From assembly GCA_903897605.1 (NCBI GenBank), contig CAIUCH010000032.1, forward strand, positions 1 to 64,000: 64,000 nucleotides of DNA. Direction: 5' to 3'. Origin of the DNA: an uncultured Alphaproteobacteria bacterium. Its GTDB lineage: Bacteria; Pseudomonadota; Alphaproteobacteria; Micropepsales; Micropepsaceae. Positions 2,151-42,202 of this stretch are shown here, piece after piece. The notes under the pieces were generated by a model. That model made no database searches. It saw nothing but the letters and a program-made list of their open reading frames with translations, and was not told the origin of the DNA. Position numbers and translations under genes: made by a program. The first letter of the stretch is position 1; each line of letters opens with the position of its first letter.

Positions 2151-2168
2151 CGCCGTTCCTTCCGTTGG

Positions 2169-3671: not shown

Positions 3672-3718
3672 TATTGGTCCCCTGAAGGCGATTGGACGGA
3701 CGTATGCGGTGGATTGGA

Positions 3719-4870: not shown

Positions 4871-5026
4871 GCTTTATCCTCCCACCATATTTGTCGCCGA
4901 ACCGGCCATCGCGGACAAGGGCGGGCCATCTGGCTCTTGAGAATGCCCGGTAACAACTCTGCTGTACAAGCGCCCATTTGGGTCAAAGATCTCGAAAAGC
5001 CCGATCCGGCTTGCTAGATTGGCATC

Positions 5027-5518: not shown

Positions 5519-5541
5519 CGCGCAGCCGGGTTGCACCAAAT

Positions 5542-6852
5542 CTATTGCGAATCGGATGGCATGGCATCGGCCATCAGAGGGTCCAACGCGTCCAGATGAT
5601 CCTTGACCTTCTGCCGGAATGCGCCCGTGGCCGTCAGCGAAATGGCCGCCAGCAGCAAGGGCGGCAAGGCAACCCAGCAGACCATGGTCCAGCCATAGGT
5701 TTCCAGCAGCCCGCCGGAAATAAAAGAACCCACCGCGACAAAACCGAAAACCACGAAATCGTTGAAGGCCTGCACCCGCGTGCGTTCTTCCGGCCGGTAG
5801 CATTCCAGCACCAGCGAGGAAGCGCCCAGGAAAGCGAAATTCCACCCCAGGCCCAGCAGGATCAACAAGCTCCAGAAATGCGTCTCGGTGATTCCGGCCA
5901 GTCCGGTCACGATCGCGGCGGCGGTAAGAAGCAGACCCGCCATCACCATGCGGCCCGCGCCGAAACGGGCAATCAAGCTGCCGGTGAAGAGGCTGGGCGC
6001 ATACATGGCGATGACATGCCATTGCAATCCAAGGTCGGATGACGCCAGGGACAGGCCGCACATCTTCATGGCCAGTGGCGCGGCCGTCATGATGAAATTC
6101 ATCAGCAGATAGCTGATCACGCCGCAAATGATCGCGGCGATGAATTTGCGCTGCCGCACGATGACGGCCAGCGGCCGGCCGGCGCCGGTTTTTTCCGCCG
6201 CCAGACGCGGCAGTGAAATGCCCGACAGCACCAATCCGCACAACAGCGCCAGCCCGGCTTGCGCCAGATAGCTGGCGAGAAACAGATAAGGCGGCAAAAG
6301 CTTCATTGTGTGGGTGACGATCTGCGGGCCCAGAACGCCGGCGAACACACCGCCCACCATCACGATGGAAAGTGCTCGCGCGCGTTTTTCCTGCGGCACA
6401 CAATCCGCCGCGGCAAAACGGAACGACAATACTGCTGCCGCGTAGGCGCCGCCCAGGAACGTCGCCGCCGAGAATAGCCAGAAGGATCCCAGCAGAACCG
6501 CCAAGGCCGAAATAAGGCCCGACAGCATGCCGGCCCCCGTACCCGTCCGGAAGGCGGCCTGGCGTCCATAGCGGCGCGCGATCGCACCCATCGGCAAAGT
6601 GCAGGCCGCCATGCCGACGACGAATACCGAGATCGGGAAAGTCGCCAGCGCCTTGTTGGGCGCCAGCATGTCGCCCACGATCGCGCCGGTCGCATAGACG
6701 ATCACGGAATTGGCGCTGCCGAACGCCTGGGCCACCGCGAACCGGATAATATTGTTACGGATCAGGCTCGCGTCCGCTCCCCGACCTTCGACCACACCCA
6801 GCATTTTCCCACTCTTATATATAGGCAGCGATTTTCCCATGATCGATCGCAT
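5542..6852 (-). CDS. MFS transporter
   Basis: Inner-membrane permease of the major facilitator superfamily, 436 residues, with about 12 hydrophobic segments. The inter-helix motif after TM2 appears as GAIARRYGRQAAFR. The order suggests an MFS porter with a large hydrophobic C-terminal half, and no substrate can be read from the sequence. The start is uncertain: ATG at 6852, 6840 or 6804 are all in frame, and the last has AGTGGG upstream. The first membrane segment begins only after residue 30, so the shorter forms are plausible. It follows the amidase on the same strand with a gap of about 90 bp. Confidence 0.8.
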   Translation of the reverse strand: MRSIMGKSLPIYKSGKMLGVVEGRGADASLIRNNIIRFAVAQAFGSANSVIVYATGAIVGDMLAPNKALATFPISVFVVGMAACTLPMGAIARRYGRQAAFRTGTGAGMLSGLISALAVLLGSFWLFSAATFLGGAYAAAVLSFRFAAADCVPQEKRARALSIVMVGGVFAGVLGPQIVTHTMKLLPPYLFLASYLAQAGLALLCGLVLSGISLPRLAAEKTGAGRPLAVIVRQRKFIAAIICGVISYLLMNFIMTAAPLAMKMCGLSLASSDLGLQWHVIAMYAPSLFTGSLIARFGAGRMVMAGLLLTAAAIVTGLAGITETHFWSLLILLGLGWNFAFLGASSLVLECYRPEERTRVQAFNDFVVFGFVAVGSFISGGLLETYGWTMVCWVALPPLLLAAISLTATGAFRQKVKDHLDALDPLMADAMPSDSQ

Positions 6853-6941
6853 CTAAAACGGCCGGCTGCAACCTGCTTTCTCGCTCTTGCCATCCCGCAG
6901 CGGCAACCCTCCATTGCAAGGACCGGGACGCGATCAAAGTG

Positions 6942-8588: not shown

Positions 8589-9857
8589 ATGGCAACACCG
8601 ATCCGCACGCCGCTGAATCGCCAGCAGATATTGGGTTTCTGGGCGGCTTGGTTCGGCTGGACGCTCGATGGCATGGACTCGGTGATCTACGCCCTGGTGT
8701 TGAGCCCGGCGATGAAGGAGCTGCTGCCAAAATCGGGCCTGCCCAACGCGCCCGCCGATATCGCTTTTGCCGGCTCGATCCTGTTTGCGCTGTTTCTGGT
8801 GGGCTGGGGATTATCGTTCATCTGGGGTCCGATCGCGGACCGATTTGGCCGCGCCAGATGCCTGGCGATCACGATCCTGATCTTTTCGGTTTTCACCGGC
8901 GCGGCAGCCTTGGCGCACAATGTCTGGGAGCTGGGTCTTTTCCGCTTTCTGGCGGGCATCGGCATTGGCGGCGAATGGGCGATGGCCGGCACCTATGTCG
9001 CCGAAGCCTGGCCGGAGGATCGCCGCAAGATGGGCGCCGGCTATTTGCAGACCGGCTATTACGCTGGATTCTTCCTGGCGGCGGCCCTCAATTTCACGGT
9101 CGGCGCCACCTTCGGCTGGCGTGCCATGTTCCTGTGCGGCGCGGTGCCGGTGCTGGTGGCGCTGTTCACCCTGTCGCGAGTGAAAGAGCCGCCACGTTGG
9201 GAGCGGGCGCATGCCGGTCCCAAAAGCCAACCGTTGATTATGATATTTGCCGGCGAAAATCTGCGGCGCACGATCGTGAATACCGCGCTGGTATCGATTG
9301 CGATCATCGGCCTGTGGGCGGGAACGGTCTATGAGCCGACCGCACTTCTGGCCTTGGCGAAAAATGCCGGCTTCACCGCCGTGCAAGGCACCAGGATCGC
9401 GTCCCTTGGCACGGCCGTGCTTTCCGTCGGCACCATCCTGGGATGCCTGCTGGCGCCGTTTCTGGCGGAGCGGTTCGGGCGCAAGAAGACACTGGCGGTC
9501 TATTTTGCCGGCATGGCAATCGCCATCACGCTCGCTTTTGGCTGGGCTTTCTATCTGCCGAACGGCCTTGTGCCATTCATCACGGTGTTATTCTTTCTGG
9601 GCCTTGCCGGCGGCAATTTCGCCATCTTCAGCCTGTGGCTGCCCGAGCAATACAATACCGCGATGCGGGCAACCGCCTTCGCCTTCTGCACCTCGTTCGG
9701 ACGGTTTCTGGGCGCGGGCGCGAATTTCGCCATCGCCGGCTTGATCCAATGGTCCGGGTCCCTGGGTTATGTGATCGCCCTGACGGCGATCCCCTTTGTC
9801 CTGGGTCTGGCGGTCATACCCTTTGCGACGGAAACCAAAGGCGAAGTCCTGCCGTAA
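8589..9857 (+). CDS. MFS transporter (metabolite:proton symporter type)
   Basis: Inner-membrane permease of 422 residues with 12 predicted helices. Signature segments are GPIADRFGRARCLAI between TM2 and TM3, and FRFLAGIGIGGEWAMAG in TM4, which is typical of the sialate/aromatic-acid symporter-like group. A second GRKK motif (FGRKKTLAV) marks the start of the second half. The ATG at 8589 has GGAGA eight bases upstream. It is divergent from the exported amidase, and the 3' ends of this gene and the next MFS gene are only 3 bp apart. The substrate is likely an organic acid, but this is inferred from family only. Confidence 0.85.
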   Translation: MATPIRTPLNRQQILGFWAAWFGWTLDGMDSVIYALVLSPAMKELLPKSGLPNAPADIAFAGSILFALFLVGWGLSFIWGPIADRFGRARCLAITILIFSVFTGAAALAHNVWELGLFRFLAGIGIGGEWAMAGTYVAEAWPEDRRKMGAGYLQTGYYAGFFLAAALNFTVGATFGWRAMFLCGAVPVLVALFTLSRVKEPPRWERAHAGPKSQPLIMIFAGENLRRTIVNTALVSIAIIGLWAGTVYEPTALLALAKNAGFTAVQGTRIASLGTAVLSVGTILGCLLAPFLAERFGRKKTLAVYFAGMAIAITLAFGWAFYLPNGLVPFITVLFFLGLAGGNFAIFSLWLPEQYNTAMRATAFAFCTSFGRFLGAGANFAIAGLIQWSGSLGYVIALTAIPFVLGLAVIPFATETKGEVLP

Positions 9858-9860
9858 CGA

Positions 9861-11210
9861 TCAACTCATGCTGCGATAGCGGTCGCGATACTGCTTCAAT
9901 CCGATCCAGGTCACCGCAAAGGTCAGCGGGCCGATGATCGCCGCCGTCACCGATAGCGCGTGAGGCAATGCATTCGGCCCGGTGAAAACATAGTCGCTGA
10001 GGAAGGCCGGAAGAATCGGGCCGCCGGTGACGCCGATGAGCCCAGTCGCGAACAAGAAGAGTGCGCCCAGCTGGGCGCGGATATGGTTCGGCGCCACCAT
10101 CTGTAAGGCCGATGGGATCAGCACGGGGGTGAATCCGATAAAGAATTTGAACGGAAAAAGCAGCGCCGCCATGATGGTGGCATTGGGCGCGATCGGCAGA
10201 AGCGCTGCCGGTAATGTGATGCCCAAAGCCGCCCAGGCGGTGAGACGCAGACAGGCGTCGGTCTTTCCCCGCGCGATCCAGCGGCTGGACTGCCAGCCGG
10301 CGAACAACATGCCCATCGGCCCGGCGATGAGAGAGGACAGACCGACGATCCGGCCGGCGCTTTGAACATTCCAACCCCAAAGACGCATGAAAAGCGTGGG
10401 GTACCAGGAGTCGGCATAGGCCATGGCCGAGAACAAGGCCGCGCCGATGAACAGCGATATCGCCATCAGCGGCATGTCCCGGACGAACGTCAGAACCTGC
10501 GAGAAGGGAACGCCATTATTCCCGGAAGCGAATTTCACAACCCCGGTGCGCTTCGGCTCCCGCAAGGTGGAAACCCACAGCGCGACCACAAGGCCGGGCA
10601 AACCGACAATCAGGAACACCAGATGCCAGGAGCGCAATTCACCGATAACGGGAATAACCATGGCCGGCATTTTTTCCACCACGCCGATGACTTCGCCGCC
10701 GATGATCAAGGCGATGCCCGCACCGATGAAGAGGCCGAGCGCATAGACGCTCAAGGCACGCGGCAGCCGGACCCTGTCGAACGAATCCGACAGGAAGGAA
10801 TAGGCCGATGGCGACAAGGTGGCCTCGCCAACCCCGACGCCGATGCGGGCCAGAAACAGCAATCCATAACTCTGTGCGAAGCCGCACAGCATGGTCATGA
10901 TGCTCCATGCCACGATCCCGGCGGTAATCAGCTTCTTGCGGTTGTGCTTGTCCGCCAGCCAACCGATCGGCAAGCCCATCAAGGTATAGAAAATGCCGAA
11001 CGCCGCGCCGGTCAGGAGCGAAAACTGAAAATCGCTGATGTGCAGATCTTTGCGGATGGGACCGACCATCAGATACAGGATCTGGCGGTCCAGATAGGAC
11101 AGGACATAGGCCACCATCAACACGATGGTGGCGTACCAGGGATAGAAACGCCCCAGCGGTGAGGGAGAGGCGGTTGCCGCGACCTGCGGACTGCTGTCAG
11201 AATCCGTCAC
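9861..11210 (-). CDS. MFS transporter of the spinster-like group, last gene of the Rieske operon
   Basis: Inner-membrane transporter of 449 residues and about 12 helices. It has the spinster-like N-terminus YVLSYLDRQILYLMVGPI, the loop motif IGWLADKHNRKKLI and the TM4 segment RIGVGVGEATLSPSAYS. This group is often found beside aromatic or steroid catabolic genes. The ATG at 11210 lies 15 bp after the stop of the ThDP enzyme gene, so it is very probably co-transcribed with the ThDP enzyme, aldehyde dehydrogenase and Rieske oxygenase genes. It would import that operon's unknown substrate. Confidence 0.85.
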   Translation of the reverse strand: MTDSDSSPQVAATASPSPLGRFYPWYATIVLMVAYVLSYLDRQILYLMVGPIRKDLHISDFQFSLLTGAAFGIFYTLMGLPIGWLADKHNRKKLITAGIVAWSIMTMLCGFAQSYGLLFLARIGVGVGEATLSPSAYSFLSDSFDRVRLPRALSVYALGLFIGAGIALIIGGEVIGVVEKMPAMVIPVIGELRSWHLVFLIVGLPGLVVALWVSTLREPKRTGVVKFASGNNGVPFSQVLTFVRDMPLMAISLFIGAALFSAMAYADSWYPTLFMRLWGWNVQSAGRIVGLSSLIAGPMGMLFAGWQSSRWIARGKTDACLRLTAWAALGITLPAALLPIAPNATIMAALLFPFKFFIGFTPVLIPSALQMVAPNHIRAQLGALFLFATGLIGVTGGPILPAFLSDYVFTGPNALPHALSVTAAIIGPLTFAVTWIGLKQYRDRYRSMS

Positions 11211-11225
11211 GGCTTTATCTCCCTG

Positions 11226-12905
11226 TCAGCCCGCTGGTCCGGCCGGATTGAACGGCTCGCCCAGGGGATTAGGTGGTGGCGCCACCGGTGATGGCACAAA
11301 GGGATGGATCAAGGGCCAGGCGCTCGGCATTTCCCCGACCCGTACTTCAATCAGACACGGCCCGCCAGCGGCCTGTGCGGTTGTCAGTGCCGCCGCCAGA
11401 TCGGCGGGGCTGTCCGCCCGATAGGACACCACGCCAAAGGCTTTTGCCAGGAGCTGGAAGTCGGGATTGTGCAAATCGACGGCGAATTCGCGGCCGAAGA
11501 CGCGCCGTTGAATGCGTTGCACATTGCCGAAGCGGCCATCGGCGAAAACGACGACACTCAGATTCAGATCATACTTTGCCGCCGTCGCCAGTTCCTGGAG
11601 GCTCCAGCCAAAGCCGCCGTCACCGACGATGGAAACGGTGCGCTTGCCGGGGGCGCCGGCCGCAACGCCAAGGGCGGTGGGAAAGCCATAGCCCAGGGTT
11701 CCCTGATAGCCCGGCGTGATGAAGGTTCGCGGCGCATGGACCTTGTAGGCGATGTTGGAGAAATATCCGACCTGGGTCAGTTCGCTCACCAATACCGCGT
11801 CATCGGCAATGTGTTCGCGCAAGATCGCGACGAAATCCGCCTGGGGCTTGATGGCGGACATTTGTTGGTCTTCCCACGCCTTGACCTTGGCGACATCTTC
11901 AATGCGGGAATTCCGCGCGGAGGTCGATCCAATCGCGGCAACAAGCCCCTCGCATCCCAGGCGGACATCGCCGAGCAATTCGAGGCCGGGCTGGCGAGGC
12001 GCGCCCACATCATTTTCCTCGATGTTGAGATAGATGAATTTGCAATGCGGCACGGCATGGGTGGGGCGGGCAATGGCGTCCAGGAAGCGTGAACCGGCAA
12101 CCAGCACGACATCCGCATGCGGCAACACGCAGCGGCCGCCCAGCGTCGTCAGAGCGAGGGGGTGACGGGCCGAAAGCGCGCCGCGCGCGCCTTCGGTCAT
12201 GACCACCGGGGCCTGGAGTTTTTCCGCCAGCGCCCGGAGCGCTTCGTCGGCGTTGCCGGCGCTGGCACCGCCACCGGCATAGATGACCGGGAATTTGGCA
12301 TCGCTTAGAAGCTTCGCGGCCTGGGCGACCAGCTTCGCATCGACCGGAGCGGGAGCGGATGGCGCGGCGTCGAAATAAGTCGCGCTGTCAATCGTTGCCT
12401 GAAGCAGGTCCGGTGGAATTTCCAAGGCGACGGGGCGCGGGCGGCCCGACCGCAATTGCGTGAAGGCCTCATGGACAAGACTTGGAATTTCCGCAGCGGT
12501 CCTGGCAATGGCATGCCATTTGGTCAGGGATTTCAGAATACCGGATTGATCGGGGATTTCGTGCAGCATGCCGAATCCCTTGCCGATTGTGGGCGACGGG
12601 ATCTGGCCGGCGATGAACAGCACGCGCGCATTGCAAGCCCAGGCGGTGGAAAGGCCGGCCAATGCGTTCAGCACGCCCGGACCGGGCACCATCATGCAGA
12701 CGCCTTCCTTGCCGGTGGTGCGGGCATAGCCGTCGGCCATGTAAGACGTGGCCTGCTCGTGGCGGGGAACGATATATTGGATGTCGCCCGCGGCATCGCA
12801 CAAGGCATCGACCGCCCAGTCCAACTGCACCCCTGGAATGCCGAATACGATCTTCACGCCTTCGCGGCGCAATTGCTCGACCAGGGCTTGACCGCCGGTT
12901 GTCAT
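11226..12905 (-). CDS. ThDP-dependent enzyme (acetolactate synthase/2-oxoacid decarboxylase family)
   Basis: Cytoplasmic thiamine-diphosphate enzyme of 559 residues with the usual Pyr, middle and PP domains. The catalytic glutamate is in IVPRHEQATSYMADGYA (about residue 50). The ThDP/Mg site is the GDGGFGWSLQ segment with the FADGRFGN loop about 25 residues later. Members of this superfamily act as acetolactate synthases, 2-oxoacid decarboxylases or benzaldehyde lyases, and sequence alone does not decide. Its 3' neighbour is a transporter, and its start overlaps the stop of an aldehyde dehydrogenase by 4 bp. A decarboxylase making an aryl-acetaldehyde for that dehydrogenase is the simplest reading (inference). 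No ilvN-like regulatory subunit is adjacent, which argues against branched-chain biosynthesis. Confidence 0.85.
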   Translation of the reverse strand: MTTGGQALVEQLRREGVKIVFGIPGVQLDWAVDALCDAAGDIQYIVPRHEQATSYMADGYARTTGKEGVCMMVPGPGVLNALAGLSTAWACNARVLFIAGQIPSPTIGKGFGMLHEIPDQSGILKSLTKWHAIARTAAEIPSLVHEAFTQLRSGRPRPVALEIPPDLLQATIDSATYFDAAPSAPAPVDAKLVAQAAKLLSDAKFPVIYAGGGASAGNADEALRALAEKLQAPVVMTEGARGALSARHPLALTTLGGRCVLPHADVVLVAGSRFLDAIARPTHAVPHCKFIYLNIEENDVGAPRQPGLELLGDVRLGCEGLVAAIGSTSARNSRIEDVAKVKAWEDQQMSAIKPQADFVAILREHIADDAVLVSELTQVGYFSNIAYKVHAPRTFITPGYQGTLGYGFPTALGVAAGAPGKRTVSIVGDGGFGWSLQELATAAKYDLNLSVVVFADGRFGNVQRIQRRVFGREFAVDLHNPDFQLLAKAFGVVSYRADSPADLAAALTTAQAAGGPCLIEVRVGEMPSAWPLIHPFVPSPVAPPPNPLGEPFNPAGPAG

Positions 12906-14353
12906 GTCTTCTTCTCTTCCGCCGGACTTGCGCTGGGACGGGTGATGGCCTTGGGCGCGAAATATTCCTCAAGCCCATAGCGGCCATTCTCGCGGCCGAT
13001 GCCGGATTGCTTGACGCCGCCAAATGGCGCGGCAAGATCGAGCGAGGCGCCGTTGAGGATCACTTGCCCGGTCCGCATGCGGCGGGCAATCGCCATCATG
13101 CGGTCGTCATTGCCGGACCAGACGCCGCCGGACAAGCCATAGTCGCTGTCATTGGCGATCCGCACCGCTTCAGCTTCGTCGGCATAGCCGATGATCGATA
13201 AAACCGGCCCAAAGGTTTCTTGCCGAGCGATGTCCATGTGCGAATGCACATCCGATAGAATGGTTGGTGTGATGTAAGCGCCTTTGGGCTGCGCGACCGG
13301 CTGCTGCGATCCGCCGGTCACAAGGCGCGCGCCTTGTTCCACCGCGCCATTGATCGCGTCGCGCACGCTGGCTTGCTGGGTGCGATTGGCGAGCGGTCCC
13401 AGGCGGGTGGCGGGATCCATGGGATCGCCAAGGGTCCAGCCCTTGACGGCTTGGGCCGCGATAGCCTCGATTTGCTTGCGCCTGCTTTCCGGCACGATCA
13501 GGCGCGACAGCGCGGCGCAAACCTGGCCGGAATTTATGAACGCCTGACCCAGGGACGCCGGGATGGCTTTTTCCAGATCGGCGTCATCCAATATGATGTT
13601 GGCGGATTTGCCGCCCAGCTCCAGCGCGACCTTCTTGGGACCCTTGGCCGCCGCTTGTGCCACCGCGCGGCCGCCGCGCGTCGATCCCGTGAACGAGACC
13701 ATGTCGATATCGGGATGCGAGACCAGGGCCTGGCCGGTCTCGCGGCCGCCGATGATCAAATTGAAAACGCCTTTCGGCGCGCCCGCCGCATGGAAGATTT
13801 CCGCCAGGATGACGGCATTCAACGGCGTGACTTCGCTGGGCTTCAGCACCACGGTGCAGCCGGCGGCCAGGGCCGGGGCGATCTTGGCCATGATCTGGTG
13901 GAGTGGAAAATTCCACGGCGTGATGGCGGCGACGACGCCGACAGGATCGTTCTGAATGATGGAGCGGCCGATCACGCGATCGTCCAAATCCGCCGCCACA
14001 TCCAGGGTGGCCTTGATGTCGCCCAGCGGCAGGCCGATCTGGGCCGCGCGCGAAAAGCCGATCGGGCACCCCATTTCGGAGGTAATGGTTCTGGCCAACT
14101 CGTCCGCCCGCGCCGCAATTCCGGCGCTCACCCGCCGCAGCAAGCCGAGACGCTCGTCCAAGGATGTCTGCGACCAGGAATCGAAGGCCGTGCGCGCCGC
14201 TATGGCCGCGTCGGCGGCGTCCTGACGCGAACCGGCCGTGGCGCTGGCGATCACCGCTTCGGTGGCGGGATTGATCACGGCAATGACGTCGGTGGATTTG
14301 GAGGCTACCCAGGCACCGCCAATATAGAGAATACGCCCCGAACTTTGATCCAT
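12902..14353 (-). CDS. NAD(P)+-dependent aldehyde dehydrogenase
   Basis: Oxidises an aldehyde to the acid. The 483-residue protein is a full-length ALDH with the Asn site in TPWNFPLHQ, the general-base glutamate in LELGGKSANI and the nucleophilic cysteine in NSGQVCAALSR. It is closest in style to the broad-specificity aldehyde dehydrogenases. It lies 3 bp after the Rieske gene and overlaps the ThDP enzyme start by 4 bp (ATGA), so the three are one transcript. The natural substrate is probably the aldehyde released by the ThDP enzyme, possibly an arylacetaldehyde on the way to a phenylacetate (inference). Confidence 0.92.
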   Translation of the reverse strand: MDQSSGRILYIGGAWVASKSTDVIAVINPATEAVIASATAGSRQDAADAAIAARTAFDSWSQTSLDERLGLLRRVSAGIAARADELARTITSEMGCPIGFSRAAQIGLPLGDIKATLDVAADLDDRVIGRSIIQNDPVGVVAAITPWNFPLHQIMAKIAPALAAGCTVVLKPSEVTPLNAVILAEIFHAAGAPKGVFNLIIGGRETGQALVSHPDIDMVSFTGSTRGGRAVAQAAAKGPKKVALELGGKSANIILDDADLEKAIPASLGQAFINSGQVCAALSRLIVPESRRKQIEAIAAQAVKGWTLGDPMDPATRLGPLANRTQQASVRDAINGAVEQGARLVTGGSQQPVAQPKGAYITPTILSDVHSHMDIARQETFGPVLSIIGYADEAEAVRIANDSDYGLSGGVWSGNDDRMMAIARRMRTGQVILNGASLDLAAPFGGVKQSGIGRENGRYGLEEYFAPKAITRPSASPAEEKKT

Positions 14354-14356
14354 CGG

Positions 14357-15535
14357 TCAGCGTTCCAGGATTTCGACCGCGGTGCCGGCATCGAGATGCA
14401 CCAGCTCCTTGTCCGGATCGAAGCTGACGCCCATCGGATCTTTTCCGGCGGCGATGGCGTCCAATTGCTGGCGATACACTTTGCGCAGCATCGAGATGCC
14501 CCGGTCGGTGGAATTGAGATGTTCTTCGGAATGCAAGGTGATCGCGCCCTGGCTGACCTGGGCTTCGTAATCGCCCGGCATTTTCTGGTGCTCGGCTTGC
14601 GTCAAATCGTGCCACGGCCGGCCATTGAAGTGAGAGCGAATTTTCCCCAACGCGCCGGCCTCGGTGACGCGGCCGGCGGAGTAGATCCGAAAGCTGGTGT
14701 CGTCGATCGGAAGCACCCAGCCCAACAGCGAACACGGTCCGTCCTTGTCGGCGCGCGGATTGGCGACGGCGCGAATGGCCGGCAGCACGGCTTCGGTGAT
14801 GCGGCGATGCACGCCGCCTTCGACATCGCGCAGTTGAAGGGAGCGGGTTCCCCGTTCGGTATATTCAAAGCTGACGCGCGGCATCAGAGCCATCTTGGCG
14901 GTGAATTGGTTGCCGCTGAAGGAGCTGTGAAGGATCGGCACATGGAAGGGATCCATCACATTCTCGAAATGCTGCAGCCAATTGCAGGGCACGATCACCG
15001 GCCCGCCGCTGCCGATGCTGTTGTCGTCGGCCTCGATGAATTCACCGGGCCCAACATTTTCCAATACGTCGTAGCGCGGCAATATCGGCTGCTTATCCGG
15101 CGGACCCAGATAGGCGAAAATCAGGCCATACAGCTCCTTGACGGGATAATGCGGCTGGCGCACCAGGCGGCATGTGGCGGCGCCATTGTTCGGTTCGCAG
15201 GGCTGTTCGACGCAACGGCCATCGACGGTGAATTTCCAGCCATGATAGCAGCAGCGGATGCCGTCTTCCTCGACCCGCCCATAATAGAGCGAAGCGCCGC
15301 GGTGTATGCATCGCGGGTAGAGAAGACCGGCGCGGCCGCTGCCATCGCGGAACAGAATCAAATCCTCGCCCAACACCTGGATCTGGCGCGGCGTATCCGT
15401 CGCATCCGAAACCAGCCCCACCGGATGCCAATAGCGCCGGAGCAGCTCTCCCATTGGCGTGCCCCGGCCCACCAGGGTCAGTTTCTCGATAAAGGTTGGA
15501 TTTGGCCGTCCATATGCCGTGACTTGGCTGGTCAT
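14357..15535 (-). CDS. Rieske non-haem iron oxygenase, alpha subunit (phthalate dioxygenase/LigX-like)
   Basis: Hydroxylates or O-demethylates an aromatic ring using O2 and electrons from a reductase. In the 392-residue protein the Rieske [2Fe-2S] ligands are C76/H78 (CIHRG) and C95/H98 (CCYHGW). The bridging Asp and catalytic iron ligands are D195, H198 and H203 in NVMDPFHVPILH. The N-terminal style (GELLRRYWHPVGL) is that of the phthalate 4,5-dioxygenase and 5,5'-dehydrodivanillate demethylase (LigX) branch, which lacks a beta subunit. The ATG at 15535 follows AGAGGG, while the longer frame has no such signal. No reductase or ferredoxin gene is nearby. It is divergent from hpaE with two HpaR-like palindromes between them, which suggests a role in making homoprotocatechuate. 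Confidence 0.9.
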   Translation of the reverse strand: MTSQVTAYGRPNPTFIEKLTLVGRGTPMGELLRRYWHPVGLVSDATDTPRQIQVLGEDLILFRDGSGRAGLLYPRCIHRGASLYYGRVEEDGIRCCYHGWKFTVDGRCVEQPCEPNNGAATCRLVRQPHYPVKELYGLIFAYLGPPDKQPILPRYDVLENVGPGEFIEADDNSIGSGGPVIVPCNWLQHFENVMDPFHVPILHSSFSGNQFTAKMALMPRVSFEYTERGTRSLQLRDVEGGVHRRITEAVLPAIRAVANPRADKDGPCSLLGWVLPIDDTSFRIYSAGRVTEAGALGKIRSHFNGRPWHDLTQAEHQKMPGDYEAQVSQGAITLHSEEHLNSTDRGISMLRKVYRQQLDAIAAGKDPMGVSFDPDKELVHLDAGTAVEILER

Positions 15536-15635
15536 CACACCCTCTGCGTCAGAGATCGCGCGCCGGACCGTGAGGCGCAAGTCATTGTCCGCCACTCTTT
15601 GGCTGCGCGAAGCGGCCCCGCGCGACCCAAACAAT

Positions 15636-15646
15636 TTAACATGTTA
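15636..15646. promoter_or_regulatory. HpaR-type operator 1 (palindrome TTAACATGTTA)
   Basis: The 10-bp core TAACATGTTA is a perfect dyad, about 100 bp upstream of the Rieske gene. The same core recurs between hpaR and hpaG1 and, with one change, upstream of hpaE. Short AT-rich dyads of this form are typical MarR-family sites. HpaR as the binding protein is an inference from location. Confidence 0.6.
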
Positions 15647-15703
15647 TCTTTTTTGCCGCAAGTCGTTCGCGCCGCATCCGGCCCCGCAATCCGGCTTGAA
15701 ATT

Positions 15704-15719
15704 ACTTAATATGTTAAGT
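15704..15719. promoter_or_regulatory. HpaR-type operator 2 (ACTTAATATGTTAAGT)
   Basis: A 16-bp inverted repeat with a single mismatched pair, 25 bp before the hpaE start codon. Its arms match those of the sites at 15636 and 17775. It could cover the hpaE promoter or transcription start. It is probably bound by the MarR-family regulator encoded at 17277-17723. Confidence 0.65.
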
Positions 15720-15744
15720 ATTCTGGCCTCGTCGGGAGGCCCGC

Positions 15745-17253
15745 ATGAATGCCATGACCACCAAACGCCGCGATACCGCGCTGGCGGCGCTGCGTCGGCT
15801 GCCCAGTCCGCTCGGACACTTTATCAATGGCCAATCGGTGCCGGGAGACGGGCCCGCTTTCGCGGTCACCGAGCCGGCCACGGGCGGAGAATTGGGCCAG
15901 GTGCGCGATGCGTCCGAGGCGGACCTCAACGCGGCCGTCGCCGCGGCCAAGTCGGCGTTTGCCCCCTGGGCCGCCACCCCGGGTGAAAAACGAAAACAGA
16001 TCCTGCACAAAGTCGCCGACCTGATTGAAGCCCGCGCCGACGAAATCGCCGCCGTCGAATGTCTGGACGCCGGCCAATGCTGGCGCTTCATGTCGAAGGC
16101 GGCTCTTCGCGGCGCTGAAAATTTCCGCTTCTTCGCCGACCGCGCCCCCGGCGCGGCGGACGGCGAGGCGCTGCCCACCGCGGATCATCTCAACTACACT
16201 ACCCGCAAGCCGATCGGCCCGGTCGCCGTGATCACGCCCTGGAACACGCCGTTCATGCTGTCCACCTGGAAGATCGCGCCTGCCTTGGCCGCGGGCTGCA
16301 CCGTGGTGCACAAGCCGGCGGAATGGTCACCCTATTCGGCCCGGCTGCTGGCCGAAATCGCCGGCGAGGCCGGGGTTCCCCCCGGTGTTCTGAATTCGAT
16401 CAACGGTCTGGGCGAAACCACCGGCAAGCGCCTTACCGAACATCCGGACATCAAGGCTGTCGCTTTTGTCGGCGAGTCGCAGACCGGGTCGGCGATCATG
16501 AGGCAGGGCGCCGATACCCTGAAGCGCGTCCACTTCGAATTGGGCGGCAAGAATCCGGTCATCGTTTTCGACGACGCCGATTTGGAGCGGGCGCTCGATG
16601 CCGCGATCTTCATGATCTATTCGCTGAATGGCGAGCGTTGCACGTCTTCGTCTCGTGCGCTGATTCAGGCCTCGATCTATGACAGTTTTGTCGAGAAGCT
16701 GGCCGCCCGGGTGCGCAATCTCAAGGTCGGCGATCCGTTCGACCCGGCGACCGAGGTCGGCCCGCTGATCCATCCCCGCCATCTTTCCAAGGTTGCCAGT
16801 TATATGGATGTCGCCCGCCAGGGTGGCGCGACTATCGCGGCTGGCGGCGAAAAGATTGCCGGCGAGGGCTATTTCTTCCAGCCGACCTTGTTCAGCAATG
16901 CCGCGCAATCCATGCGCATCGCCCAGGACGAGATCTTCGGCCCGGTCCTGACCGCGATCCCGTTCACCGACGAGGCCGATGCCATCGCCAAGGCCAACGA
17001 CATCAAATACGGCCTTGCCGGATATCTGTGGACCAGCAATCTGGAGCGCGCCCTGCGGGTCTCGGATGCTTTGGACGCGGGAATGATTTGGGTGAACAGC
17101 GAGAATATTCGCCACCTGCCGACGCCATTTGGCGGCGTCAAGGCCAGCGGCATTGGCCGCGATGGCGGTGACTGGAGCTTCGATTTCTTCATGGAGACCA
17201 AGAATGTCGCCCTGGCGCGGGGCAGCCATAAGAGCCAGCGGCTTGGCGTTTGA
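15745..17253 (+). CDS. hpaE: 5-carboxymethyl-2-hydroxymuconate semialdehyde dehydrogenase
   Basis: NAD-dependent oxidation of the ring-cleavage product of homoprotocatechuate to 5-carboxymethyl-2-hydroxymuconate. The 502-residue ALDH has TPWNTPFMLS, the general-base glutamate in FELGGKNPV and the nucleophilic cysteine in NGERCTSSSR, which is characteristic of the HpaE subgroup. GGGAGG lies 5 bases before the ATG at 15745, and a second ATG 9 nt later is also possible. It is separated from the rest of the hpa genes by the oppositely oriented hpaR, and it is divergent from the Rieske operon with two MarR-type palindromes in the gap. Confidence 0.94.
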   Translation: MNAMTTKRRDTALAALRRLPSPLGHFINGQSVPGDGPAFAVTEPATGGELGQVRDASEADLNAAVAAAKSAFAPWAATPGEKRKQILHKVADLIEARADEIAAVECLDAGQCWRFMSKAALRGAENFRFFADRAPGAADGEALPTADHLNYTTRKPIGPVAVITPWNTPFMLSTWKIAPALAAGCTVVHKPAEWSPYSARLLAEIAGEAGVPPGVLNSINGLGETTGKRLTEHPDIKAVAFVGESQTGSAIMRQGADTLKRVHFELGGKNPVIVFDDADLERALDAAIFMIYSLNGERCTSSSRALIQASIYDSFVEKLAARVRNLKVGDPFDPATEVGPLIHPRHLSKVASYMDVARQGGATIAAGGEKIAGEGYFFQPTLFSNAAQSMRIAQDEIFGPVLTAIPFTDEADAIAKANDIKYGLAGYLWTSNLERALRVSDALDAGMIWVNSENIRHLPTPFGGVKASGIGRDGGDWSFDFFMETKNVALARGSHKSQRLGV

Positions 17254-17276
17254 GTTTCGGGCGGTCCCGTGCCGCC

Positions 17277-17723
17277 CTATCCGTCGATCGCCTTGATCAG
17301 TGCGCGCAATTCGGCGATCAGGTTCTTCAAGCGCTTGTCGCCGAATTTCTTGGAATACAAGCTCAGTTGCAGGATGGTGTGGGTGGCGGTCTCCTCAATC
17401 AAGGTTCGCCCGCTTGCCGAAAGGGATACGATCGCGCCACGGCCATCCTTGGGATTGGCTTGGCGGATGACGAGTTCGCGCTCCACCAGGTCTTTGAGGA
17501 TTCGGGTGACACTGGGACCGAACAGCAGGGCGGAATCCGCCAAGGTTTTGAGATCGATGGGCCCGCTATCATCCAGCACCCGCAACACGCGCCATTGCTG
17601 CTCGGTGACGCCGGCCTCCGCCAGCATGGGCCGGATCGGCGCCATGACGGCTTCGCGCGCGGCCAAAAGCGTGCCGGCCAGCGAATGGCGATAGGGCGGC
17701 AGGTTTTTGGAGTTTTTTTTCAT
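17277..17723 (-). CDS. hpaR: MarR-family regulator of homoprotocatechuate degradation
   Basis: Probable repressor released by an intermediate of the pathway. The 148-residue winged-helix protein has the MarR core, with the recognition region around LADSALLFGPSVTRILKDL and the wing NPKDGRGAIVSLS. The HpaR subgroup is indicated by the N-terminal PPYRHSLAGTLLAAREAVMA and by its place between hpaE and hpaG. It is transcribed opposite to both. The palindrome TTAACATGTTAA lies 51 bp upstream of its start, in the gap shared with hpaG1, so it probably also controls its own gene. Confidence 0.92.
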   Translation of the reverse strand: MKKNSKNLPPYRHSLAGTLLAAREAVMAPIRPMLAEAGVTEQQWRVLRVLDDSGPIDLKTLADSALLFGPSVTRILKDLVERELVIRQANPKDGRGAIVSLSASGRTLIEETATHTILQLSLYSKKFGDKRLKNLIAELRALIKAIDG

Positions 17724-17774
17724 GCCGGCCTGTCGACAGGATAGCTTGTCGTTATGGACAATGCATTTTATAAT

Positions 17775-17786
17775 TTAACATGTTAA
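17775..17786. promoter_or_regulatory. HpaR-type operator 3 (TTAACATGTTAA)
   Basis: A perfect 12-bp palindrome in the divergent hpaR/hpaG1 intergenic region, 30 bp before the hpaG1 start. It has the same core as the sites at 15636 and 15704. The position fits joint control of hpaR and the hpaG1-hpaH operon. Binding itself is inferred. Confidence 0.7.
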
Positions 17787-17816
17787 GTATATGACCGTCG
17801 GGAGATCGAGTCAAAC

Positions 17817-18461
17817 ATGGCGATGATCGCTGGAACCATATACGGCGTGGTCCTGAATGACAGGGAGCAGCATCGGCGGCTCGCGGCCGCGTTCCTGGAG
17901 CCGCCCTATAAGGCGCCGCCGCAAAAGCCCGTCCTTTACATCAAATCGCGCAATTGTCTGACGACGAGCGGCGGCGAGGTCATGCTTTCGCCCGATCTCA
18001 CCCAGGTCGAAGCGGCCGCGACCTTGGGCCTCTTGATCGGCCGCGATGCCCATCGTGTCACCATGGAAACGGCGCTCGCCCATGTCGCGGGCGCTTGCCT
18101 GGCGCTCGACATCACCGAACCGCATGACAGCTATTATCGCCCCTCCGTGCGCCAGCGCTGCCGCGACGGATTTCTGCCTTTGGGTGGATTGGCGGACTTC
18201 ACACCCGCGCTGCTGGACGGCGATATCGAGACCCGTGTCAACGACATTGCCGTTCATAGCTGGTCGCCGCGCCGCCTGGTGCGGGACGCTGCGCGGTTGA
18301 TGGCCGATATCAGCGTCTTCATGACCTTGGCGGCAGGGGACCTGTTGCTTATCGGCTTGCCGTTCGACGCGCCCCGGATTGCCGCCGGAGATCATGTCGC
18401 GGTTTGTGCCGGGCGCCTGCCACACTTGTCGGCCCGGTTCCGTGCGGAGATCGCTGCGTGA
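17817..18461 (+). CDS. hpaG1: HpaG1: 2-hydroxyhepta-2,4-diene-1,7-dioate isomerase/decarboxylase, N-terminal-type subunit
   Basis: A FAA-hydrolase-fold protein of 214 residues that matches the N-terminal half of the E. coli HpaG bifunctional decarboxylase/isomerase. HpaG converts 5-oxopent-3-ene-1,2,5-tricarboxylate to 2-oxohept-3-ene-1,7-dioate. Segments such as KPVLYIKSRNCL, QVEAAATLGLLIG and LDITEPHDSYYRP are typical of this half. An ATG two codons downstream is an alternative start. Its stop overlaps the hpaG2 start as GTGA, and it leads a six-gene transcript to hpaH. Confidence 0.9.
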   Translation: MAMIAGTIYGVVLNDREQHRRLAAAFLEPPYKAPPQKPVLYIKSRNCLTTSGGEVMLSPDLTQVEAAATLGLLIGRDAHRVTMETALAHVAGACLALDITEPHDSYYRPSVRQRCRDGFLPLGGLADFTPALLDGDIETRVNDIAVHSWSPRRLVRDAARLMADISVFMTLAAGDLLLIGLPFDAPRIAAGDHVAVCAGRLPHLSARFRAEIAA

Positions 18462-19216
18462 AACGTGCGCGCATTTTCCACAAGGGGGCCGTCACCTGGG
18501 CAGCGCTGGTCGACAATGACAGGGCGTTACGCCTGCCGAGCGGCGAAATCCTGGCCTTGACGCAGGCCCATTGGCTGGCGCCGGTTACGCCCGGCGCAAC
18601 CATTTTCGCGCTCGGCCTCAACTATGCCGACCATGTCAAGGAATTGGGATTCAAAACCAAGGAACCGCCCCTGGTGTTCCTGAAAGGGCCGAACACGCTG
18701 ACGGGCCATCTTGGCGAAACGGTGCGGCCGGCGGATGGCAATCAAATGCATCCGGAATGCGAACTCGTCGCCATCGTCGGAAAGCCAGCCCGCCATGTGA
18801 GCGCGGCAGAGGCCATGAATCATGTCGGCGGCTACACGGTGGCCTGCGACTATGCCATCCGCGAATATCTCGAAAATTATTACCGGCCCAACCTGGCGGT
18901 GAAGAATCGCGACGCGACAACGCCGCTGGGCCCCTGGGTGGTCGATGCCGCCGAAATCGCCGATCCCCAGAAGCTGCGCCTACGCACGATGGTCAATGGA
19001 AAAATGGTGCAGGAGGGTTCGACCGCGGACATGGTGTTGGATATCGCTGGCATCATTGCCTATCTCTCCGAAACCATGACCCTTCTGCCGGGCGACATGA
19101 TCATGACCGGCACGCCGCCGGGGATACATTTTTGCAGCCCCGGTGATCAGGTGGTGTGCGAGATTGAAGAAGTCGGCCGCTTGGTCAACACTCTGGTTGC
19201 GGAGACCGGGCCATGA
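18458..19216 (+). CDS. hpaG2: HpaG2: decarboxylase/isomerase, C-terminal-type subunit
   Basis: FAA-hydrolase family protein of 252 residues that is the catalytic partner of HpaG1. The metal- and substrate-site segments are visible: FALGLNYADHVKELG, the acidic HPECELVAIVGK, and CDYAIREYLENYYRPN followed by VKNRD. The GTG start at 18458 is chosen because it overlaps the hpaG1 stop by 4 bp and has GGAGA 7 nt upstream; the longer reading frame would lie inside hpaG1. Its own stop overlaps the next ATG by 4 bp. Confidence 0.92.
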   Translation: MKRARIFHKGAVTWAALVDNDRALRLPSGEILALTQAHWLAPVTPGATIFALGLNYADHVKELGFKTKEPPLVFLKGPNTLTGHLGETVRPADGNQMHPECELVAIVGKPARHVSAAEAMNHVGGYTVACDYAIREYLENYYRPNLAVKNRDATTPLGPWVVDAAEIADPQKLRLRTMVNGKMVQEGSTADMVLDIAGIIAYLSETMTLLPGDMIMTGTPPGIHFCSPGDQVVCEIEEVGRLVNTLVAETGP

Positions 19217-19539
19217 GTCTTTATCAGTTGAGCAAGTTTCTGTTTCAGCTAAACAGGGACGAAGACCTGAAGACGCGGTTCAAGGCCGGGCCGCAAGCGG
19301 CGCTGGAGCCATTCGGTCTGACCACAGAAGAGCGCGACGCGATTCTGAGTCACGATATCGGTCTAATCTATGTGCTTGGGGTTAACGGCCAGATCCTCAT
19401 GCACTTCGCCGCTTTTTGCGGCATCGAATGGTCCGATTATCTTCAGCGCATGCGAGATGGCGTCAAACATTATGGGCCGGTGCGGGCGGGGATCTACACC
19501 ATGCAATCCGGCTTGGATGACAAAGTGGCGGGGGCCTAG
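19213..19539 (+). CDS. LigA-type small subunit of an extradiol dioxygenase
   Basis: A 108-residue protein of the protocatechuate 4,5-dioxygenase alpha-subunit (LigA) fold. The segments YQLSKFLFQLNRDEDLKTRF and LLYVLGVNG-like LIYVLGVNGQILMH, with GLTTEERDAI between, are typical. It carries no iron but lines the active site of the LigB-type partner encoded directly downstream. It overlaps hpaG2 by ATGA and precedes the large subunit by 3 bp. In classical hpa operons this position is taken by a single-subunit HpaD, so the pair is proposed to be the homoprotocatechuate 2,3-dioxygenase. Confidence 0.85.
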   Translation: MSLYQLSKFLFQLNRDEDLKTRFKAGPQAALEPFGLTTEERDAILSHDIGLIYVLGVNGQILMHFAAFCGIEWSDYLQRMRDGVKHYGPVRAGIYTMQSGLDDKVAGA

Positions 19540-19542: not shown

Positions 19543-20361
19543 ATGGCTCTGGTGTTCTGCGGTGTCTGCAGCCACGCCCCCGGTATCACCGGCCGCGCCG
19601 AACGGGCCGATCCGGACCTGCGCGAACCTTTCTATGCCGCCTTGGGCGGCATGCGCGATGGCTTGCATGCCACGCGGCCCGATGCCCTTGTCGTCGTCGC
19701 CGCCGAACACTTCGCCAATTTCTTCATGAACAACATGCCGGCCTATGCCCTCGGCATGGCGGACAGCTATGACGGCCCGATCGAGGATCCGGCCTGGCTT
19801 GGCATCCGACCGCGCACCGTGCGCGGCAATCCCGATCTGTCGCGGCGCTTGATCGCCGAAGTTCAGCAGACCGTCGATGTCGCCTATGCCGAGGAATGGC
19901 GCTTTGACCATGGCATCATGGTGCCGCTGCATTTCCTGGACCCGAACAATGTGCTGACCGTCATCCCCGGCAACATCAATTGCCAGGGTCCGCCCTTGTC
20001 GCCATTGCGACGCGCCTGGGCTTTTGGCGAAGCCATTCGCCGGGCCGCCGATCTTGTGCCCGAGCGCATTGCCCTGGTCTGCACCGGCGGCATCTCGCAC
20101 TGGCCGGCGACACCGGACAGCGGAATGATCAATGAGGCTTGGGATCGCCAATTCCTGGATCGCTGGGCGCGCCAGGACAAGGCGGGCATGGTGTCCTATA
20201 CCGACCAGGCGACCTATTGCGATGCGGGGCAGGGCGGATTCGAGATTCGCACCTTTGTCGCCGCGGCGGCGGCGGCGCGAGGCCCCGGCACGGTTCATTT
20301 CTATGCGCCCATTCCCATCTTCGCCGTGGGATGCACGGTCGGCACATTGGAGATTGTCTGA
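19543..20361 (+). CDS. LigB-type class III extradiol dioxygenase, large subunit (predicted homoprotocatechuate 2,3-dioxygenase)
   Basis: Cleaves a catechol ring next to the hydroxyls with Fe(II). In the 272-residue protein the probable iron ligands are H11 (CSHAPG), H56 (AEHFANF) and E234 (GGFEIRT). H123 and H186 (GGISHWP) match active-site histidines of LigB. The gene overlaps hpaF (TGATG) and lies between hpaG2 and hpaF, so homoprotocatechuate is the expected substrate. E. coli HpaD has the same fold but is single-subunit, whereas this one comes with a LigA partner. Protocatechuate or another catechol acid cannot be excluded from the sequence. Confidence 0.87.
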   Translation: MALVFCGVCSHAPGITGRAERADPDLREPFYAALGGMRDGLHATRPDALVVVAAEHFANFFMNNMPAYALGMADSYDGPIEDPAWLGIRPRTVRGNPDLSRRLIAEVQQTVDVAYAEEWRFDHGIMVPLHFLDPNNVLTVIPGNINCQGPPLSPLRRAWAFGEAIRRAADLVPERIALVCTGGISHWPATPDSGMINEAWDRQFLDRWARQDKAGMVSYTDQATYCDAGQGGFEIRTFVAAAAAARGPGTVHFYAPIPIFAVGCTVGTLEIV

Positions 20362-20753
20362 TGGCGCATGCGATCGTCGAATGGACCGCCAATCTCGAAG
20401 GGCAAGCGGATATCCATGGGTTGCTGGAACTGATCGCCGCGGCGATGCGCGATTCCGGCGGCGTGTTTCCTTGGGGCGGCATTCGCGTTCGCGCCGTCCG
20501 GCTGGATGATTATGTCATCGCCGATGGCAAGGCCGACGACGCTTTTGTCAATATCACCGTCAAGATGGGCGCCGGCCGGAGCGCCGAGTTCAAGCGCGAA
20601 TTCTTTACCGCCCTGTTCGAAAGGATAAAGGCGCATTTCGCCGGCCTCTATGCCAGCCGTTTTCTGGCATTGTCACTGTATGTCGAGGAAGCCGATGAAA
20701 GCGGCAGCTTCAAGCACAATAATATCCATCAGCGATTCAAGAAGGCTCCGTGA
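20361..20753 (+). CDS. hpaF: 5-carboxymethyl-2-hydroxymuconate delta-isomerase-like protein, lacking Pro1
   Basis: Tautomerase-superfamily protein of 130 residues. Its segments [36 protein letters not shown] and [11 protein letters not shown] match HpaF, which isomerises 5-carboxymethyl-2-hydroxymuconate. The start is fixed by overlap with the dioxygenase stop at 20359-20361. It reads Met-Ala-His-Ala-Ile-Val-Glu-Trp. Family members normally have Pro as residue 2, which becomes the catalytic N-terminal Pro1, and here the codon is GCG (Ala). The rest of the fold looks intact. The protein may use a different base, be slow, or have changed role. It ends with a 1-base stop/start overlap with hpaH. 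Confidence 0.88.
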
Positions 20754-21559
20754 TGCCTCTTTCCCAAGCCATCATCGCCGATATGGCGGCGCGCCTGGAG
20801 GCGGCGGAACAAAGCGGTGAACAGATCGGCCATTTTTCCCGCGAACAACCGGATATGACCATCGAGGATGGTTATAATGTGCAGCGCGCCTGGGTGGCGC
20901 ACAAACTTGCGGCCGGCCGCCGGCTAATCGGCCACAAGATCGGCCTGACCAGCCGCGCCATGCAGCGCTCATCCAATATCAACGAGCCGGATTATGGCGC
21001 CTTGCTCGACAACATGCTGTTTCCCGACAGGAGCGACATTCCGTGCAAGCGCTTTATCGAACCGCGCGTCGAAGTCGAACTGGCCTTCATCCTGAAGGAT
21101 CGGCTGGCGGGTCCCGATTGCACGATTGCGGACGTATTGCGCGCCACTGAAACTGTCGTGCCCGCGATCGAGATCATCGACGCCCGCATTCGCCGCATCG
21201 ACACCGAGAGCGGCGCCACCCGCAAAGTGTTCGATACGATCTCCGACAACGCCGCCAGTGCCGGCCTGGTCCTGGGCGGCACGCCGGTTCGTCCCGGCGC
21301 GGCCGATCTTCGCTGGGTGGCGGCTTTGATTCATCGCAACGATGTCATCGAGGATTCCGGCGTCGCCGCCGCCGTGCTCGGGCATCCCGCCATGGGGGTG
21401 GCCTGGCTGGCCAACAAGCTGGCGCCTTGGGGCGAATCGCTTGCGCCCGGTGAAATCGTGCTCAGCGGCAGTTTCACCGCGCCGGTCTTCGCCTCGGCCG
21501 GAGATCAGTTTCTGGTGGACTATGGCCCGCTGGGCACAATTTCGGTGCGGTTCGTCTAA
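20753..21559 (+). CDS. hpaH: 2-oxo-hept-4-ene-1,7-dioate hydratase
   Basis: Adds water to 2-oxohept-4-ene-1,7-dioate to give 4-hydroxy-2-oxoheptanedioate, the substrate of HpaI. The 268-residue protein belongs to the MhpD/HpaH hydratase branch of the FAH-like fold, with [12 protein letters not shown], the metal-site [10 protein letters not shown] and AIEIIDARI. The ATG at 20753 is preferred to a GTG one codon earlier. It is the last gene of the hpaG1-hpaH transcript. No hpaI follows, although an HpaI-like aldolase gene is present at 27396-28190 on the other strand. Confidence 0.93.
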
Positions 21560-22643: not shown

Positions 22644-22859
22644 ATTCCCCGGCCGGCGCTCGACCCGGCGTCATTCGTTCGGGCGGCAGGCCGAATTCGG
22701 CTTTGATTCACGGCAATTCCGGCTCGAATGTCGGGATATCGCCCTTGCGTTGCGTCGTGAGCGTCATGTTTCCTTCAATTCAGGCCCGGTATGCGACGCC
22801 GAATATTGGGCAGGACATGCGAATTGCGCTATCATTCTCGCGTTTCCAGGAGCCCAACC

Positions 22860-42195: not shown

Positions 42196-42202
42196 ATCCA
42201 AG

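Follow-up and report, generated by a model that had tools for sequence, protein, structure and literature searches.

The window analysed here is a 64-kb stretch of DNA (contig CAIUCH010000032.1) from an uncultured alphaproteobacterium of the Micropepsaceae. It carries an operon for a Rieske non-heme iron oxygenase, an aldehyde dehydrogenase (ALDH), a thiamine diphosphate (ThDP) enzyme, and a major facilitator superfamily (MFS) transporter, which lies divergent from the hpa genes of homoprotocatechuate (3,4-dihydroxyphenylacetate) catabolism. The operon is probably an upper pathway that feeds this catabolism from arylpyruvates, with ring-substituted aromatic amino acids as their likeliest source. 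All of its parts are of known families, and judged by sequence it is their partnership that recurs in several bacterial groups.

In the proposed pathway, the MFS importer would take up the compound, and the arylpyruvate would come from an aminotransferase encoded elsewhere in the genome or from an external source. The ThDP enzyme would decarboxylate the arylpyruvate to an arylacetaldehyde, which the ALDH would oxidise to an arylacetate. The Rieske oxygenase would then attack the ring at its C3-C4 edge, one carbon of which bears OH, O-alkyl, O-aryl, or halogen as a leaving group. Collapse of the adduct with loss of the substituent would give homoprotocatechuate, moving PobA chemistry from benzoates to phenylacetates. 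A LigAB-type dioxygenase, HpaE, HpaG1/G2, HpaF, HpaH, an HpaI-type aldolase, and succinate-semialdehyde dehydrogenase (SSADH) would complete the breakdown. The reactions, their order, and the substrate are all predicted from gene families and gene context. The original prediction had proposed the same route from a 2-oxoacid via arylacetaldehyde and arylacetate to homoprotocatechuate. Its general scheme gains from the gene linkage, the aminotransferases, and the kinship with PobA and its near-identical relative Sca described below, but its description of the Rieske protein as LigX-like does not stand.

The operon and the lower pathway

Gene families were assigned with Pfam and NCBIfam profiles. 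The four genes are stop-free open reading frames on the minus strand:

14357-15535, minus: Rieske non-heme iron oxygenase alpha subunit of the PobA/phthalate-dioxygenase group (392 aa; Pfam PF00355, 62.9 bits)
12902-14353, minus: aldehyde dehydrogenase, proposed arylacetaldehyde dehydrogenase (483 aa; Pfam PF00171, 529 bits)
11226-12905, minus: ThDP enzyme, proposed arylpyruvate decarboxylase (559 aa; NCBIfam PRK08266, 711 bits, cut-off 571)
9861-11210, minus: MFS transporter, proposed importer (449 aa; Pfam PF07690, 140 bits)

They are separated by a 3-base gap (Rieske/ALDH), a 4-base overlap (ALDH/ThDP), and a 15-base gap (ThDP/MFS). The operon of four tightly packed genes is thus present as originally described, but the interval assigned to it, 11226-15535, holds only three of them as the MFS gene lies outside. 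It is also divergent from hpaE as predicted, with 209 bases between the starts of hpaE and the Rieske gene on opposite strands. PRK08266 is called 'hypothetical protein' by NCBIfam and has no assigned function, none of the listed NCBIfam equivalogs scores above its cut-off for the ALDH, and the MFS protein reaches only 37 bits to the HpaX model (cut-off 615).

The lower pathway genes follow on the other side of the divergent promoter region:

15745-17253, plus: hpaE (TIGR02299, 760 bits, cut-off 638)
17277-17723, minus: hpaR-like MarR regulator (TIGR02337, 119.9 bits, cut-off 121.2)
17817-18461, plus: N-terminal half of hpaG as a separate gene, hpaG1 (TIGR02305, 195 bits, cut-off 229)
18404-19216, plus: C-terminal half of hpaG as a separate gene, hpaG2 (TIGR02303, 320 bits, cut-off 276)
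19213-19539, plus: LigA-type small subunit of the ring-cleavage dioxygenase (Pfam PF07746, 51 bits)
19543-20361, plus: LigB-type catalytic subunit, proposed homoprotocatechuate 2,3-dioxygenase (Pfam PF02900, 99.5 bits)
20361-20753, plus: hpaF, 5-carboxymethyl-2-hydroxymuconate (CHM) isomerase (PRK15031, 117 bits, below the cut-off of 215)
20750-21559, plus: hpaH, 2-oxo-hept-4-ene-1,7-dioate hydratase (TIGR02312, 423 bits, cut-off 351.5)
22791-24344, plus: SSADH (TIGR01780, 685 bits, cut-off 646)
27396-28280, minus: HpcH/HpaI-type aldolase, possibly the last lower-pathway step (Pfam PF03328, 141 bits; TIGR02311 HpaI, 232 bits, below 369)

An oxidoreductase gene lies between hpaH and the SSADH gene. 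HpaE, the C-terminal half of HpaG, HpaH, and SSADH score above their curated cut-offs while HpaR, the N-terminal half of HpaG, HpaF, and HpaI fall below theirs, hence the presence of the lower pathway is well but not perfectly supported. The ring-cleavage enzyme does not classify as an HpaD-type 2,3-dioxygenase (HpaD_Fe, 29 bits) and has LigA and LigB domains in place.

Conserved linkage with hpa genes

A named genome collection was scanned with the Rieske protein and the best 80 of 311 loci were kept. Genes in these related loci were called by simple longest-frame or third-position G+C rules, and the calls contain false frames. The Rieske gene directly adjoins hpa genes in the clade of the window protein, in Caulobacter sp. 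RHG1 (locus L022), and in four Sphingomonas loci with a fifth at a contig edge, and the gene orders differ among the three. The comparative search that the original prediction had set as its own test therefore finds the linkage conserved. Three of 95 other genomes of the family have the Rieske protein, at 74–75% identity, and all three (apparently L023-L025) carry it beside hpaE. Within the best 80 of 311 loci, the recurring partners are hpaG2 (at least 50% identity) in 8, the ThDP gene (at least 50%) in 8, the window-type ALDH gene (at least 60%) in 4, and the MFS gene (at least 50%) in 11.

In the Caulobacter locus, a PDR-like reductase (L022:7974-8957), the Rieske protein, an ALDH, a HisC-class aminotransferase, an ArgE/M20-type deacylase, the ThDP enzyme, and an MFS transporter are encoded in one row, divergent from a complete hpa set. 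A further gene there we take to be an S10 carboxypeptidase from its sequence, and it has no NCBIfam match. The Sphingomonas loci have the Rieske gene, an MFS gene, and a gene read as a TonB receptor next to the hpa genes, with a TyrB-like aminotransferase on the far side that is 60% identical to the enzyme of Aminobacter.

A tree of 92 Rieske rows, built by a quick method and unsure for the long branches P_RO, R_RO, and S_RO, places the window protein in a clade of 14 with an SH-aLRT support of 97. The clade consists of the window, Aminobacter, and L022-L033 with no others; the second, distant Rieske proteins of Sphingomonas account for four of the 92 rows. All 14 members have hpaE. In 12 it scores above the cut-off, in Aminobacter it is on the same 534-kb plasmid as the Rieske gene at a distance of ~26 kb, and in L030 the evidence is a 28-aa fragment at a contig end. 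In all, 28 genomes with the Rieske protein were tested, 24 of which were chosen by us from the 80 named loci and joined by G000, G160, G450, and G154. HpaE is above cut-off in 20 of these 28, a count that includes several close kin and is uncorrected for kinship, and in 16 of the 385 genomes of an even class sample. In six Rieske-bearing genomes of Bradyrhizobium and relatives, hpaE lies elsewhere in the genome. In all five of the hpaE regions read from this group (L122, L123, L125, L131, and L132) a ThDP relative of 38–41% identity stands beside the hpa genes, and the one scored reaches 911 bits to PRK08266.

Shared palindromes

Three palindromes lie in the control gaps of the two transcription units:

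15636-15647, no strand: TTAACATGTTAT, proposed HpaR operator 1, hpaE/Rieske gap
15706-15717, no strand: TTAATATGTTAA, proposed HpaR operator 2, hpaE/Rieske gap
17775-17786, no strand: TTAACATGTTAA, hpaR/hpaG1 gap

These are the only TTAAYATGTTAA sites with at most one mismatch in the 64 kb, against an expected 0.05, and none of 100 shuffles reached as many, a figure that is partly circular as the pattern was derived from the sites. Support independent of this count comes from their recurrence in the same two gaps of the sister loci L023, L024, and L025, each with two sites between hpaE and the Rieske gene and a single one between hpaR and hpaG1. The MarR-type palindromes that had been described as common to the operon and the hpa control regions are therefore confirmed as three near-identical, conserved sites. 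In Caulobacter a single site lies close to hpaG1/hpaR, and each of the four full Sphingomonas loci has one before hpaE; locus L128 has no TTAAYATGTTAA site. The HpaR-like repressor probably controls both transcription units by binding at TTAAYATGTTAA.

The Rieske protein and its predicted chemistry

The residues C76/H78/C95/H98 and D195/H198/H203/D344 are kept in at least 97% of the 92 aligned rows, and we take them to be the Rieske cluster (CxH...CxxH) and the 2-His-1-carboxylate iron site. Together with PF00355 they place the protein among the Rieske non-heme iron oxygenase alpha subunits. Its best PDB matches are named phthalate 4,5-dioxygenase and Rieske proteins, and by best match it belongs to the PobA/phthalate-dioxygenase group (type I alpha of PMC2358900). 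Among characterised relatives, the closest one found is Sca of Sphingobium baderi SC-1, 50% identical over 383 aa. The sca candidate is a 1,230-bp gene (L118:11938-13167), which agrees with sca of PMC11026547 in strain, plasmid location, length, and the single gene that separates it from a reductase; the reductase itself is annotated with 942 bases versus the 960 given there. According to that paper, Sca is 96.3% identical to PobA and has phenol among its products, and PobAB is cited as converting 3-phenoxybenzoate to phenol and protocatechuate (PMC11026547).

Since Sca/PobA makes protocatechuate, the window enzyme is predicted to attack a substituted phenylacetate at C3-C4, as the same reaction on a substrate one carbon longer gives homoprotocatechuate. 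Hydroxyl, methoxyl, aryloxyl, and halogen substituents all fit this chemistry, so that the sequence does not fix the substrate. Within the scheme, a hydroxyphenylacetate is a plausible candidate at somewhat below an even chance, an aryloxy or other substituted phenylacetate is about equally plausible, and a methoxyphenylacetate is rather unlikely. At 35 positions, Sca departs from the residue that at least 97% of the 81 closer rows share.

The LigX-like label is not supported by the domain content. At E 0.001, Pfam gives a Rieske domain only and no LigXa_C (PF19301) in the window protein, and membership of LigX, the 5,5'-dehydrodivanillate (DDVA) O-demethylase, is rejected. The same scan detects LigXa_C elsewhere, in a second Rieske protein of L031 (47 bits) and in a Rieske protein of Rhodococcus erythropolis R138 (31 bits), while the relatives in Aminobacter and Bradyrhizobium give 16–19 bits, below the cut-off of 27.

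The Rieske and reductase proteins of S. baderi (L118 11938-14522) have counterparts of 99.5% and 100% identity on a Rhodococcus pyridinivorans plasmid (L119 11938-14078), and the pair lies near insertion elements, indicating transfer between phyla. In L111 (genome G450), a relative of 55–56% identity (9474-10640) adjoins genes resembling F420 biosynthesis and luciferase-like monooxygenase (LLM)-type oxidoreductases. Beyond the hpa/Rieske cluster of L031, positions 14069-18346 carry an IclR-type gene, the second Rieske gene (33%, with LigXa_C), FAH, and a LigB-type dioxygenase, and similar genes are found in L026 and L027.

The proposed arylpyruvate side

The substrate of the ThDP enzyme is probably an arylpyruvate. 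This predicted activity is read mainly from the aminotransferase genes of related loci and from a second gene set in the same genome. Aromatic aminotransferase genes accompany ThDP or hpa genes in five lineages. Six Aminobacter plasmids carry both the Rieske (71%) and ThDP (60%) genes, and in the two regions read an aromatic aminotransferase, the ThDP enzyme, a PDR/VanB reductase, and the Rieske protein are encoded together. The Aminobacter aminotransferase is TyrB-class with 515 bits to the aromatic amino acid transaminase PRK09257 (cut-off 377), and on plasmid pAA01 hpaI, H, FAH, D, E, the isomerase, and R lie ~22–28 kb from the Rieske gene. In S. colocasiae, a ThDP gene (67%), a TyrB-class PRK09257 aminotransferase gene (507 bits), and an ALDH gene stand beside the hpa genes. 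A HisC-class aminotransferase gene is placed between the Rieske and ThDP genes of both a bog gammaproteobacterium (L033) and Caulobacter. The second set in the window's own genome is an arylalanine-type cluster on contig C57 (L108 11847-19001 and L109 1060-9139), with a TyrB-class aminotransferase (PRK09257, 510 bits), an HpaB/HpaC-like pair, a LigB-type dioxygenase, a ThDP paralog 71% identical to that of the window, and an ALDH closest to the phenylacetaldehyde dehydrogenase StyD (606 bits, cut-off 850).

Plain tyrosine already has a route in the window through HPPD, hmgA, and FAH of the homogentisate pathway (37860-41548), and hmgA is above cut-off in 22 of the 28 Rieske genomes. The original prediction had not mentioned this route. 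Plain tyrosine is thus a less likely substrate, also as the sole one. The neighbouring genes suggest another source. Genes for S10 carboxypeptidase-like and M20 deacylase proteins stand beside the Rieske gene in Caulobacter and in S. colocasiae, where the Rieske gene lies apart from the hpa genes, and S10-like genes are present in L033. In these three loci they suggest peptide-bound or acylated aromatic amino acids as the starting material. A more far-reaching version, which we consider quite unlikely, makes the Rieske protein the prototype of an oxygenase class that is widespread, forms homoprotocatechuate without homology to HpaBC, and has gone unreported. Together with the aminotransferase, the ThDP decarboxylase, and the ALDH it would degrade modified tyrosines that carry an O-aryl or O-alkyl group and are freed by the S10-like carboxypeptidase and M20 deacylase. 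Isodityrosine-like diphenyl ethers of plant cell-wall or microbial peptides would be examples, at a similarly low probability.

Alternative readings

The alternative that survives best, itself a special case of the upper-pathway reading, is that the Rieske protein is a 4-hydroxyphenylacetate 3-hydroxylase that substitutes for HpaBC and that the operon is a second route for tyrosine or 4-hydroxyphenylpyruvate. The original prediction had stated that hpaBC is absent. HpaBC was indeed not found in the 64-kb window, but the genome has an HpaB/HpaC-like pair on contig C57, where the single PF03241 match is a 502-aa HpaB-1-like protein (430.8 bits, below the cut-off of 480.2) with a flavin-reductase-like gene nearby that reads as HpaC-like. 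Substitution is favoured by the aromatic aminotransferases that adjoin ThDP genes and by HpaB-1 or HpaB-2 above cut-off in only 1 of 20 genomes with both the Rieske protein and hpaE. However, the homogentisate genes already serve tyrosine, and although HpaB-1 is above cut-off in just 2 of the 28 Rieske genomes, HpaB-like proteins below it occur in 15 more, with C2-type 4-hydroxyphenylacetate hydroxylases outside the search. HpaB-2 is above cut-off in none of 43 genomes, four of which score 683–787 bits. Overall, we regard substitution as possible but unlikely. One locus, L032, encodes HpaB-1, a GntG/threonine-aldolase-type protein, the Rieske protein, the ThDP enzyme, and an MFS transporter in a single row (3-6934).

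A role as O-demethylase of homovanillate or another methoxyphenylacetate, likewise a special case, is improbable. Two-component enzymes with PDR/VanB reductases occur in the group, and a 45% relative in R. erythropolis R138 lies near three genes of one-carbon metabolism, purU, folP, and an aminomethyltransferase gene. This protein is outside the clade of the window protein, however, and the window operon showed no noticeable one-carbon genes. In PMC9867520, the VanAB-carrying Rhodococcus strains tested did not grow on homovanillate, so that nothing there links known O-demethylases to this compound.

It is very unlikely that the Rieske protein hydroxylates a side chain or an amino acid and that the ThDP enzyme is a benzoylformate-type decarboxylase of a mandelate-like route. 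The ThDP enzyme does match benzoylformate decarboxylases in the PDB, and a 4-hydroxybenzoate 3-monooxygenase is encoded in the same Aminobacter cluster. The product of such a route would be protocatechuate, but it is homoprotocatechuate genes that the window, Caulobacter, Sphingomonas, and the Aminobacter plasmid carry. Nor was a mandelate dehydrogenase noticed among the loci read. Least credible is a chance neighbourhood, in which the operon would belong to a different pathway and have nothing but the divergent promoter region in common with the hpa genes. This might be argued from Bradyrhizobium Rieske loci without hpa genes within 9 kb and from a class sample without coupling beyond the window's own genome, against which stand the hpa linkage in Caulobacter, Sphingomonas, and the window clade with different gene orders, the palindromes conserved in both gaps, and hpaE in every clade member.

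Several observations nonetheless weigh against an upper pathway for substituted arylpyruvates. Eight of the 28 Rieske genomes tested have no HpaE above cut-off. In the class sample, the Rieske protein (E 1e-110) occurs in 4 of 385 genomes and hpaE accompanies it only in the window's own; the three other proteins are 49–59% identical and outside the window clade. Neither an aminotransferase gene beside the window operon nor a ThDP gene in the Sphingomonas flanks read came to light. That the Rieske protein has simply replaced HpaB is not borne out either, as the difference between 1 of 20 genomes with the Rieske protein and hpaE and 4 of 15 hpaE genomes without the Rieske protein is too weak to show it. 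The Rieske locus L032 also encodes an HpaB-1 that scores above cut-off, and thus the two need not exclude each other.

The electron donor of the Rieske enzyme is likewise a matter of prediction. Reductase genes that would fit the FMN/[2Fe-2S] partner (FNRC type) of this enzyme group are direct neighbours of the Rieske genes of Caulobacter, Aminobacter, Roseateles, and a Burkholderiaceae metagenome-assembled genome. None was found beside the window operon or in L114 and L115, which cover nearly all of the remaining contig. A reductase search of the window's own genome at E 1e-5 was also empty, but this had no positive control and absence is not claimed. These too count against the proposed pathway.

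Relation to known systems

The closest known system is the phenoxybenzoate 3,4-dioxygenase PobAB/Sca of P. pseudoalcaligenes POB310 and S. baderi SC-1. It likewise shows only the Rieske domain in Pfam, and its attack at C3-C4 to give a catechol is the one proposed for the window enzyme. The reductases beside the Caulobacter and Aminobacter relatives are 49.5–51.5% identical to those of Sca and R. pyridinivorans. In contrast, the substrate of PobA is a benzoate and the product protocatechuate, and the stretches read around these genes have insertion-sequence genes and no ThDP, ALDH, or hpa genes.

The E. coli-type Hpa pathway begins with HpaBC, a flavin-dependent 4-hydroxyphenylacetate 3-hydroxylase. 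It shares the expected product and the lower genes with the window, but its hydroxylase is not homologous to the Rieske protein and ring cleavage in the window is LigAB-type rather than HpaD. The 4-chlorophenylacetate 3,4-dioxygenase of Pseudomonas CBS3 is reportedly a multi-component non-heme oxygenase that converts a substituted phenylacetate to homoprotocatechuate, a precedent likened here by its description and not by sequence. Degradation of 3-nitrotyrosine via 4-hydroxy-3-nitrophenylacetate is said to lead from a modified tyrosine through arylpyruvate and arylacetate to homoprotocatechuate; the order of steps is that of the proposed pathway, but the ring step is performed by a flavin denitrase, unlike the Rieske enzyme.

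No description of a Rieske enzyme that forms homoprotocatechuate was found in the titles, abstract starts, and passages of open-licence literature. If the proposed pathway is true, a second, unrelated enzyme type would make homoprotocatechuate in many soil bacteria including Bradyrhizobium. Some hpa gene sets without hpaBC would be explained, and the adjoining Rieske enzymes would gain a testable substrate class. PobA, which is known for breaking down man-made diphenyl ethers, would also be tied to a function in nature.

Other genes of the window

The homogentisate genes belong to a longer row at 37860-45056, in which HPPD, hmgA, FAH, and a putative maleylacetoacetate isomerase gene are followed by a cyclase-type gene and kynureninase, placing tyrosine and tryptophan catabolism genes on the same contig. 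A further ThDP enzyme of 661 aa with all three thiamine pyrophosphate (TPP) domains is encoded at 31300-33285 on the minus strand, followed by a small c-type cytochrome gene (30938-31303, minus). Its N-terminus resembles a twin-arginine export signal, and an exported ThDP enzyme would be unusual.

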